NCBI GenBank assembly: GCA_028279445.1
Contig: JANQNT010000023.1
Coordinates: 186,001 to 250,000, forward strand
Length of the DNA: 64,000 nt
Source of the DNA: Tepidamorphaceae bacterium
GTDB taxonomy: Bacteria; Pseudomonadota; Alphaproteobacteria; Rhizobiales; Tepidamorphaceae
Reading direction: 5' to 3'
The notes beneath the pieces are model-generated. The model saw only the letters and a list, made by a program, of their open reading frames with translations. It had not been told where the DNA came from and did not search any database. The position numbers and the translations under genes are program-made. The stretch's first letter is position 1. Each line of letters begins with the position of its first letter. Of this stretch, positions 8,126-30,990 are shown piece after piece.

Positions 8126-8525
8126 GCTTATTCCGCTCACGGCGAGTTCGCTCGGACAATGTCCGCGCTCACCGCCTCCGCGAGGGCGGCCTGACCGGCC
8201 GGGCACGCAGTCGCGTGCCGGGTGCCCCAAACTCGGTCCGAGCAGGATGATGCCGCGAGGGTGAGGCCCGTCTCAACGATTGGTCCAGTGGACCAATCGT
8301 AGGGCCGAACGCCCGAGGCCCTAGCCGAGGGCCGGCAGGAAAAGTGGGAGCCGGTTTTTGGACAAGCCGAGCGGCCGGCAAAAAATGAAACCGGCGAAGC
8401 CGGCAAGCGCGACGGCGCGCCCGGCCGAAAGGCCGCGCCCGCGCAGGCGTCGATCCCGGACGGCACGGAGTGCCTTGGCACGATGTGCCTGATCCGGGAT
8501 TGACTTGCCGTGAGCGAAATAGAAC
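8126..8525. repeat. intergenic repeat tract A (mosaic element)
   Basis: This roughly 400-bp non-coding tract starts with TATTCCGCTCACGGCGAG and ends with the near inverse TTGCCGTGAGCGAAATAGAA. Inside are a ggcctgaccggccgggca module (8186-8230), a palindrome at 8276-8300 with 11-bp arms and a 3-nt loop, a GTGGGAGCCGGTTTTTGGAC block, and a CCCGGA...TCCGGG hairpin (8456-8500). The same modules return in tracts B to G. No plausible gene is inside. It separates convergent genes, so terminator function is possible. Confidence 0.8.
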
Positions 8526-22028: not shown

Positions 22029-22440
22029 GCCCCGTCTCGACGATTGGTCCGATGGATCAATCGTAGGGGCGAACGCGCGAGGCCCTAGCCAAGCGCCGGG
22101 TGAAACGCGGTCCGCGTAGCGGACGAAACGATCCAGTGAATCGTTTCGAGCGTTGAACGCCCGAGGCCCAAGCCAAGGGCCGGATCAGCCCCGTCTCGAT
22201 GATCAGTCCGGTGGGCCATTCTTGCCGGCCGCTCGGCTTGTCCGAAAACCGGTTTCCACTTTTCCTGCCGGCCCTACGATTGGTTCGCTGGACCAATCGT
22301 CGAGACGGGCCTCACCCTCGCGGCATCATCCTGCACCGACTTCGCAGCCGGCACCCAGGCGTGCGACCGCGCGCCCGGCCGATCAGGCCGCCCTCCCGCA
22401 GGCGGTGAGTGAAGCGAACTCGCCGTGAGCGAAATAGAAT
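22029..22440. repeat. intergenic repeat tract B (mosaic, partly inverted copy of A)
   Basis: The tract starts at the moaA stop. It holds three palindromes of identical layout (22040-22064, 22124-22148, 22276-22300), a GTCCGC-gta-GCGGAC hairpin (22110-22124), and a roughly 110-bp inverted near copy of tract A (22225-22335). It ends in GAACTCGCCGTGAGCGAAAT (22422-22434 region), the inverted form of tract A's left end. There is no coding content; the next gene stops at 22518. Confidence 0.78.
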
Positions 22441-25792: not shown

Positions 25793-26136
25793 TTTCGCTC
25801 ACGCCGAGCTCACTTCGTTCGCCGCCTCCGCGAGGGCGCGCTTTCGCGCGGACACGCAGTCGCGTGTCTGGGGTCGTTCCTTGCGCTGACGAAGCGTTTG
25901 GCACCCTGGCACGCGGTCGTGCGCCTGGGTGCAGATCGCACCGTCGGTGCAGGATGATGCCGCGAGCCCCGAAAAGTGGGAACCGGTTTTCGGACAAGGC
26001 GAGCGGCTAGCAAAGAATGCCCGCTCCCAGGTTCAATCGTCGAGCCGGGGCTGACCCTGGCGCTCGACTCGGGTCTCGCGCGTTCGATGCTCGAAACGAT
26101 TCGCTGGATCGTTTCGTCCGCTTCGCGGACCACATC
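25793..26136. repeat. intergenic repeat tract C
   Basis: The tract starts CATTTCGCTCACGCCGAGCT like tract A. It then carries the ACGCAGTCGCGTGTCTGGG and CACGCGGTCGTGCGCCTGGG modules, GCAGGATGATGCCGCGAG, GTGGGAACCGGTTTTCGGAC, the 25-nt palindrome at 26092-26116 and GTCCGC-ttc-GCGGAC (26116-26130). It ends at the mrp stop, so it lies between convergent genes. Confidence 0.78.
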
Positions 26137-27484: not shown

Positions 27485-27800
27485 AATGGGGGAGGCCCGT
27501 CTTGGCGGACGGTCCGGTGGACCGGCCGGAGGGCCGAACGCCCGAGGCAATAGCCGAGGGCCGGTTATCCCTTGCGGATATGCGCCACGGCATCGCCCCG
27601 CATCTTAGCGTCACCCCGGACGGCACTTGGTGCCTGATCCGGGGAGCGTTTTTCTCCCTCACGGCGAGTTCGCCCGGACAATGTCCGCGCTCACCGCCTG
27701 CGGGAGCGCGGCCTGACCGGCCGGGCGCACAGTCGTGCGCCTGGCGTTGCCATCCACTCCCCGCGTCACCCCGGACTTGATCCGGGGTCCATAGGGCAGG
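27485..27800. repeat. intergenic repeat tract D
   Basis: The tract has GGAGGCCCGTC, a short hairpin CGGTCC-ggt-GGACCG (27510-27524), GGGCCGAACGCCCGAGGC, a CCCCGGA...TCCGGGG hairpin (27614-27643), CTCACGGCGAGTTCGCCCGG with the GGACAATGTCCGCGCTCACC module, the ggcctgaccggccgggcg module, and the familiar alphaproteobacterial palindrome CACCCCGGACTTGATCCGGG near 27770. The rest up to 27853 shows nothing further. Confidence 0.75.
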
Positions 27801-29542: not shown

Positions 29543-29790
29543 TCTGTTTCGCTCACGCCAGTTCCCCCGGATCAAGCACTTCGTGCTGTCCGGGGTCACG
29601 GCTCCGCGGGGGCGGCCTGACCGGCCGGGCGCACGGTCGTGCGCCTGGGTGCCAAACACTCCGCCGGTGCGGGGAACGAACACAGACACGCGACTGCGTG
29701 TCCGCGCAAAGGCGCGCCCTCGCGGAGGCGGTGAGCGCGGACATTGTCCGGGCGAACTCGCCGTGAGCGAAATAAACAGGCGCCCTGACC
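29543..29790. repeat. intergenic repeat tract E with terminal inverted repeats
   Basis: The left end GTTTCGCTCACGCCAGTTC lies just after the fdhD stop. The right end is CTCGCCGTGAGCGAAATAAAC near 29757-29778. Between them are CCCCGGATCAAGCACTTCGTG, the ggcctgaccggccgggcg module, and, inverted, GCCCTCGCGGAGGCGGTGAG and CGGACATTGTCCGGG. A partial third module runs to the mobA start at 29828. Confidence 0.78.
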
Positions 29791-29827
29791 GGCCGGGGGC
29801 GCAGTCGTGCGCCTGGGTGGCCGACGT

Positions 29828-30466
29828 ATGAGCGGGACTGTACACGATGTTGCCGGCGTCATCCTCGCCGGCGGGCTGTCGCGGCGCATGGGTGGCGGCG
29901 ACAAGCCGCTGCTCGATCTGGCCGGCCGTCCGATGCTGGCGCATGTCATCGACCGGCTGGCTCCCCAGGTCGGTGCGCTGGCGCTCAACGCCAACGGCGA
30001 TCCGGCACGCTTCGCACCTTTCGATCTCCCGGTGATCGCCGATCCGATCGAGGGCTTCGCCGGGCCGCTGGCCGGCGTGCTGGCGGGCCTGCGCTGGGCG
30101 CAATCGAACGCGCCGCAAGCGCGTTACATGGCGACGGCGGCAGGCGACACGCCGTTCTTCCCGGCCGACTTCGTTGCGCGCACCCTTGCGGCAGCCGGCG
30201 ATGCGGACATGATCGTGCTGGCGCGATCCGACGGGCGGGTGCATCCGGTCTTCGGCCTGTGGCCGGTGGCGTTCGCCGACGACCTCGATGCCTTCCTGAC
30301 GCACGGCGAGAGCCGCAAGGTGCTCGCCTGGGTCGACCGGCACGCCAACACAACGACCGAGTTCGCCCCGGCTCGGATCGGTGGGCAGTCGCTCGACCCG
30401 TTCTTCAACGCCAACACGCCGGAGGATCTTGAAACTGCCTCAGGCCTGCTTGCGCAGAGCTCATAG
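29828..30466 (+). CDS. mobA: molybdenum cofactor guanylyltransferase
   Basis: MobA adds GMP from GTP to Mo-molybdopterin, forming the MGD cofactor of FDH. The start MSGTVHDVAG at 29828 gives 212 residues. The nucleotide-binding signature GVILAGGLSRRMGGGDKPLL is near residue 10, and the metal-binding TAAGDTPFFP follows at about 100. The 3' part shows FFNANTPEDLE. It sits between repeat tracts E and F, upstream of mobB-moeA. Confidence 0.93.
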   Translation: MSGTVHDVAGVILAGGLSRRMGGGDKPLLDLAGRPMLAHVIDRLAPQVGALALNANGDPARFAPFDLPVIADPIEGFAGPLAGVLAGLRWAQSNAPQARYMATAAGDTPFFPADFVARTLAAAGDADMIVLARSDGRVHPVFGLWPVAFADDLDAFLTHGESRKVLAWVDRHANTTTEFAPARIGGQSLDPFFNANTPEDLETASGLLAQSS

Positions 30467-30472
30467 CGGCGT

Positions 30473-30671
30473 TTCTATTCCGCTCACGCCAGTGCGCTGT
30501 GCGCACGGCTCCGCGAGGGCGGCCTGACCGGCCGGGCACGCAGTCGCGTGCCTGGGTGCCAAATGCACAGTCGGTGCGTGGAACGAACCCGGCGTCCGAC
30601 CGGACGCCCGCGCGAACAGCGCGCCCTCGCGGAGCCGTGCGCACAGCGCACTGGCGTGAGCGGAATAGAAC
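30473..30671. repeat. intergenic repeat tract F: 48-bp perfect inverted repeat
   Basis: Bases 30473-30520 and 30623-30670 are exact reverse complements (one more inner base pair also fits), beginning TTCTATTCCGCTCACGCCAG and ending CTGGCGTGAGCGGAATAGAA. The central ~100 bp carry the ggcctgaccggccgggca and ACGCAGTCGCGTGCCTGGG modules. As DNA it resembles a small non-autonomous element with terminal inverted repeats. As RNA it would fold into a very stable stem 7 bp after the mobA stop. Confidence 0.88.
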
Positions 30672-30759: not shown

Positions 30760-30990
30760 TATATCCCTCACGCCGAGCTCACTTCGTTCGCCGGCTCCGC
30801 GGGGCGCGCTGTTCGCGCGGGCACGCAGTCGCGTGCCTGGGTGCAGATCGCTCTGTCTGTGCAGGATGATGCCGTGAGCCCCGAAACACACGTCGTGTGA
30901 CGTGGGAAGTAAGTTTTCGGACAAGAGGCGCGGAGCGGCGCAGCCGCGACAGGGAAAGCTAACAAGGCGGACGGCGAGCAAATAAGACAC
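30760..30990. repeat. intergenic repeat tract G
   Basis: ATCCCTCACGCCGAGCTCAC opens a copy close to tract C, with CACGCAGTCGCGTGCCTGGG, GCAGGATGATGCCGTGAG and AAGTTTTCGGACAAG. Part of the internal hairpin is replaced by CACACGTCGTGTGACGTGGG. It ends near 30990, about 40 bp before mobB. The 90 bp between F and G (30672-30760) show only a CGGATCACGG...CCGGGGTGACG fragment. Confidence 0.7.

Follow-up and report, generated by a model that had tools for sequence, protein, structure and literature searches.

A hairpin-rich interspersed repeat at gene 3′ ends in a Tepidamorphaceae genome and its tRNA-linked half-units in related bacteria

Among described bacterial repeats, REPINs and BIMEs come closest to the palindrome considered here, being likewise inverted pairs of hairpin units that are mosaic, present in many intergenic copies, and found both as singlets and as pairs (PMC3116915, PMC2817692). 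Br-REP1 and Br-REP2 of Bradyrhizobium are comparable as alphaproteobacterial multi-palindrome repeats that reside in convergent 3′ UTRs and differ in abundance among relatives (PMC5082802), as are the RIME, ABC and Sm repeats of Sinorhizobium meliloti (named in PMC2573895), which are rhizobial intergenic mosaic palindromes of unknown function. The CGTC-tagged REPs are also alphaproteobacterial, paired and without a dedicated transposase; their stems are 8-9 bp long, one end bears the CGTC tag, and the tail is CCA-like (PMC3733652). Finally, ERIC, Correia and similar palindromic MITE-like repeats share with the present element the form of a 100-200 bp palindrome between genes (family context in PMC2267715).

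The element at positions 30473-30670 of the window, the 64,000-nt stretch of DNA that was analyzed, is a variant of the REP/BIME/REPIN kind, without RAYT and without the tags. It differs from REPINs and BIMEs in being built of a 78-nt half-unit composed of an arm, a stem and two hairpins, in the lack of a RAYT in its genome, and in its link to tRNA 3′ ends. Neither a GTAG nor a CGTC tag is present at the element ends, of which 98 were aligned and read TTTATTYCGCTCACG, and the published core of Br-REP1, CCGGAATCTCGAGATTCCGG, is unlike the sequence blocks found here when the two are compared by eye (PMC5082802). The initial annotation of this DNA named no family with such ends, and no matching family came from Rfam, from the searched open-access papers or from 300 kb of S. 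meliloti pSymB. At gathering score, tRNAs were all that Rfam returned for the window and for eight tRNA-linked loci. The pSymB segment, which has repeat families of its own (not tied to the published names), gave a best match to the half-unit model at E = 0.37, and the open-access papers, a limited library by which novelty is not proven, described no tRNA-linked repeats of this kind.

Three further resemblances were noted. MIR8670, which is labeled a microRNA, matched the element of a relative (locus L136, 1507-1650) with 41 bits against a gathering score of 150 and with little sequence agreement; this is probably a generic match to a long hairpin and was set aside. A weak match to the Brucella sRNA BASRCI408 (27 bits; gathering score 398) adjoins an element in another locus (L132, 17-51 and 74-108). 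Hairpins such as CTCATTCCCGCGAAGGCGGGAATCCA, which resemble CGTC-type REPs, lie beside half-units in three loci of genome G023 (L213, L215, L221).

The focal palindrome, element F, had been described as bounded by exact inverted arms of 48 bp, and it bears out this description, since the terminal 49 nt at both ends are exact reverse complements. A longer pair of arms, of 83 nt each, is 83% complementary, with 32 nt between them. Folding is far beyond chance: the predicted + strand RNA fold reaches -171.4 kcal/mol, compared with -93.9 ± 4.8 for dinucleotide shuffles (z = -16), and the DNA fold has a z of -14.5. The sequence TTCGCTCACG occurs five times in the window, where 0.44 occurrences are expected, and TTYCGCTCACG is found at 115 places in the genome compared with one for the reversed control. 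Element F is an inverted pair of half-units with a multi-hairpin crown. The left half-unit (30478-30554, + strand; 75.9 bits with the covariance model R2) comprises, in order, the end TTCCGCTCACG, an arm hairpin, the segment CTCCGCGAGGGC, hairpin h1 and hairpin h2 with its AGTC loop. The right half-unit (30589-30665, - strand; 66.4 bits) is inverted, so that h4 (loop GACC) and h5 precede the stem, arm and end. The central spacer region between them (h3, 30555-30588) is less conserved than the flanking hairpins in alignment A1.

Across copies, the 78-nt half-unit consists of a T-rich CGCTCACG end, an arm hairpin, CTCCGCGGGGGC, and two hairpins, the last with an RGTC loop. Full copies likewise run from the end through an arm segment, the segment between arm and h1, h1, h2, a variable center, h4 and h5 to a mirrored stem, arm and end. 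Where both arms could be read, in 22 copies, an arm resembles its partner no more than it resembles the arms of other copies (permutation p = 0.55), and the pair is identical in just two copies, the focal one among them. Because the two sides of a copy carry their alleles independently, the perfect 49-nt arm of element F represents the coincidence of one allele on both sides, and the perfect inverted repeat, which is not the defining feature, was abandoned as the unit on the basis of this test. The mosaic interiors that were suspected at the same time are real, in that both arms and core hairpins are present as alleles. Hairpins h2 and h4 fall into discrete alleles whose stems are compensated, and each of the four combinations of the main alleles is represented among the copies, a pattern that, judged from sequence, points to exchange between copies.

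The structure of the half-unit also shows covariation. Compensatory changes are found in 12 of 15 stem pairs (20 half-units from 11 genomes). The covariation score is 0.425, compared with 0.145 ± 0.021 for shuffled and at most 0.091 for slid alignments, and 84% of cells can pair (68% when shuffled, below 40% in slid controls); these figures lean in favor of the structure, as two elements contribute both halves and the structure was drawn on one row, and the margin is large. The h2 loop reads RGTC in 19 of 23 half-units, with one register shift allowed, and the stems vary at every position.

Ten units are recognized in the window by R2. The earlier observation that tracts A and E have two ends and tracts B, C, D and G only one is readily accommodated by the half-unit model: two inverted units stand close together in E and in F and far apart in A, and a single unit is present in each of B, C, D and G. 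Tract A (8131-8519) comprises half-units at 8131-8221 (+) and 8402-8519 (-). Tract B is a half-unit on the - strand (22356-22434; R2, 70.8 bits), tract C (25793-25952) combines a half-unit at 25793-25870 (+) with a core match at 25826-25952 (-), and tract D is a + strand half-unit recognized by R2 (27653-27743). Element E (29547-29772; 133.1 bits with R1, and also matched by R2) lies between fdhD and mobA, with half-units at 29547-29647 (+) and 29683-29772 (-) whose arms carry longer nested hairpins. What appear to be extra hairpins resembling h1 and h2 follow on the + strand (29779-29822) and stop 6 nt ahead of the mobA start codon (region 29779-29828). Element E would thus form the 5′ leader of mobA, with a possible influence on its translation. 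The single half-unit of tract G, in the gap between mobA and mobB (30762-30839, +; R2, 64.3 bits), passes into another kind of repeat (GATGATGCCGTGAGCCCCGAAA...). Many elements are adjoined by, or have one half replaced with, a second palindromic repeat that carries CCGAAAACCGGTTCCCACTTTTCGGG and GCCTCACGGCATCATCC (loci such as L003, L010 and L028; 30866-30915 in the window), and a variant of it stands alone at the orthologous mobA-mobB gap of the closest relative, G001 (L227).

The genome to which the window belongs (G000, a draft of 33 contigs, 99.6% complete) contains at least 96 loci of the element, 38 nearly full length and 58 partial, with sharp, repeated ends in unrelated flanks. This genome-wide count is a minimum; copies were searched for with BLAST and then with a covariance model of the 126-nt core, and the hits in 386 kb around matches were merged into loci. 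The aligned ends have a sharp edge at position -5, where the information drops to 0.2 from about 1 bit. The closest copy to element F matches it at 91% over part of its length; the copies are diverged, and so any activity may be old.

According to our own rough gene calls, 51 of the gaps with elements are convergent, 34 tandem and 2 divergent. Convergent and divergent gaps are nearly equal in number along any chromosome, and the distribution is what avoidance of promoter regions would produce. A Fisher test of convergent-gap enrichment is inflated because the analyzed pieces had been fetched for their elements, and the convergent and divergent counts are relied upon instead. The initial annotation placed all tracts directly after stop codons. 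Genome-wide this holds in part: 51 of 140 sides facing a gene 3′ end lie within 20 nt of the stop, and the median distance is 58.5 nt. Insertion into terminator T-tracts was considered and rejected, as strong hairpins stand beside 9.9% of ends, a weak excess over the controls (2-3% when shifted, 5% when shuffled).

Comparison of orthologous gaps argues that the copies are insertions. Of 59 named relatives, 54 have a mobA-mobB gap no longer than 61 nt; here it is 564 nt. The fdhD-mobA gap, 285 nt here, is usually short in named relatives or replaced by an overlap. In G001, fdhD and mobA overlap and mobA-mobB is 80 nt. At another copy, between ybaB and recR, a gap of 369 nt here compares with 20 nt in G001 and with 10-37 nt in 12 further genomes; five more have longer gaps. 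The fdhD/mobA, mobA/mobB and ybaB/recR sites are therefore empty in G001 and most other relatives, all of them from other genera, and the copies at these sites arose in this lineage. No element was found at the mobA loci of the named relatives with the full-length G000 profile, which is narrow, so that diverged units may escape it. The infC-rpmI site was dropped as uninformative, since the gaps of relatives are also long there (140-240 nt or more).

Conceivably, the palindromes could instead be conserved, non-mobile cis-acting RNA or DNA signals at gene 3′ ends, such as bidirectional terminators, stabilizers of mRNA 3′ ends or attenuators, kept by selection. Such a role would fit the strong bias toward convergent gaps and gene 3′ ends and the very stable folding, and stem-loop repeats in the convergent 3′ UTRs of Bradyrhizobium offer a precedent (PMC5082802). 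It is nevertheless unlikely given the sites that are empty in relatives, the random strand of tandem full-length copies relative to transcription (7 against, 6 with), the TTTATT...AATAAA ends, which leave no U-tract past the stem, and the weakness of the hairpin excess beside the ends. We consider it probable that 30473-30670, in which two half-units stand head to head around a short center, belongs to a hairpin-rich interspersed repeat that is non-autonomous and inserts at gene 3′ ends, preferentially those of tRNA genes.

The preference for tRNA ends is most apparent when relatives are included. Half-units of identical layout with other stem letters occur in several families, and R2 matches half-units in 74 of 199 genomes of the order and, elsewhere in the class, in 15 of about 188, with 23-25 candidates scored per genome, so that copy numbers saturate. 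Single units are the commoner form in relatives. Tandem arrays of half-units with a period of about 93-121 bp were also seen (L330, L343, L345, L317, L357). In a plasmid collection there was one match of 28 nt, in Roseibium, together with weak partial matches to a unit from a relative.

In 16 of 60 loci, picked by R2 score, irrespective of tRNAs, after the link had been noticed in other loci, the unit starts 1-6 nt past the CCA end of a tRNA gene on the same strand, when about 0.15 such cases would be expected under independence. Loci read earlier add six further distinct cases. In G000, 4 of 51 tRNAs (Gly, Arg, Ala and Leu) are directly followed by an element (about 0.006 expected). The tRNA-linked units, with those of G000 included, involve about twelve tRNA specificities, and in one locus four tandem units stand directly behind a tRNA-Leu gene (L330). 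This frequent position at tRNA 3′ ends suggests a small mobile element that inserts at gene ends. About 30 nt past the half-unit, some units repeat the 3′ end of the cognate tRNA over 8-13 nt, CCA included. The longest cognate match averages 6.69 nt; with permuted partners the mean is 5.49 ± 0.23, and none of 10000 permutations reaches the observed value. Copies of at least 8 nt are found in 9 of 32 tRNA-linked units, where 3.0 are expected; one of the nine (L371) is at another position. Duplication of the tRNA end at the units is thus likely, though not general, several tRNA-linked units being without a cognate copy and the copy being clear in about a third only. A T-arm-like piece (GTTCGA..TTTCTCC) between half-unit and tRNA-end copy recurs by eye in several genomes.

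These positions past CCA on the same strand, the cognate copy found downstream in part of the units, and the tandem arrays would also be compatible with remnants of integration at tRNA 3′ ends, namely att-like repeats that small islands left behind on site-specific recombination and that were later copied elsewhere. This origin seems improbable, as apparently one element is found at about twelve tRNA specificities, and it leaves the inverted pairs at protein genes unexplained.

ERIC, Correia and similar repeats insert at TA; the pairs here show no such duplication. Among full-length pairs, duplications of 2-12 nt give no signal over permuted flanks, and a TA or longer target-site duplication at pairs was accordingly rejected. 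An excess of duplications at single units away from tRNAs is driven by tandem units and tRNA-like flanks and was not used. It is thus highly doubtful that the element is a classical DDE-type MITE whose terminal inverted repeat is the end consensus given above and which was mobilized by an insertion sequence since lost from the genome. The sharp inverted ends recall such a MITE, and TA stands at both ends in 16 of 35 copies; yet about 14.5 are expected from the marginals of the end consensus alone, terminal inverted repeats are confined to full-length pairs and absent from single units, and no longer duplication was seen. Among the matches listed, covering 100 of the 115 end-motif places in this draft of 33 contigs, there was neither an autonomous relative with a long inverted end pair nor an element with these ends that carries a transposase gene.

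Least probable of all is a REPIN or BIME mobilized in trans by a RAYT (Y1 HUH) transposase, such as the initial annotation had proposed to look for, because, although inverted pairs of hairpin units, singlets as their leftovers, intergenic dispersal and the missing duplication at pairs would all agree with it, the 99.6% complete genome has no PF01797 (Y1_Tnp) match, which rejects a RAYT encoded there, Y1 genes occur in about 4 of the 15 relatives that have the element and in about 10 of the 46 that do not, and the half-unit exceeds a REP in size and has no GTAG or CGTC tag (compared with PMC3733652).

The initial view of a mobile unit of MITE-like or REP-like kind is upheld in part: it is supported by copy number, sharp ends, mosaic interiors and empty sites, and finds no backing in target duplication at full-length copies or in a Y1/RAYT gene. 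For the interspersed repeat favored here, copies would have moved by insertion at gene 3′ ends, tRNA genes being the preferred landing site, and the second tRNA-end copy of 8-13 nt would be a target-site duplication or an att-like repeat. The folded strand would be recognized by some enzyme that is not a Y1/RAYT transposase of this genome. Inverted pairs would derive from single units and could then have been amplified and recombined with each other in this lineage, and any effect on host mRNA, such as 3′-end protection or attenuation, would be secondary. A broader proposal is tentative and, on balance, doubtful: that these repeats belong to a widespread alphaproteobacterial class of non-autonomous elements of about 110 nt, which insert just 3′ of the CCA end of many tRNA genes, duplicate the tRNA end, are the source of the inverted pairs scattered over protein-gene 3′ ends, and are moved by a fold-reading enzyme not yet described.

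This element bears on how REP-like repeats spread without RAYT. The repeat superfamily is recognizable in over a third of the sampled genomes of the order and is often anchored at tRNA 3′ ends, and its defined target site and structure model together provide a means to look for the mobilizing enzyme. If unrecognized, such repeats complicate the annotation of small RNAs, 3′ UTRs and tRNA neighborhoods in these bacteria.
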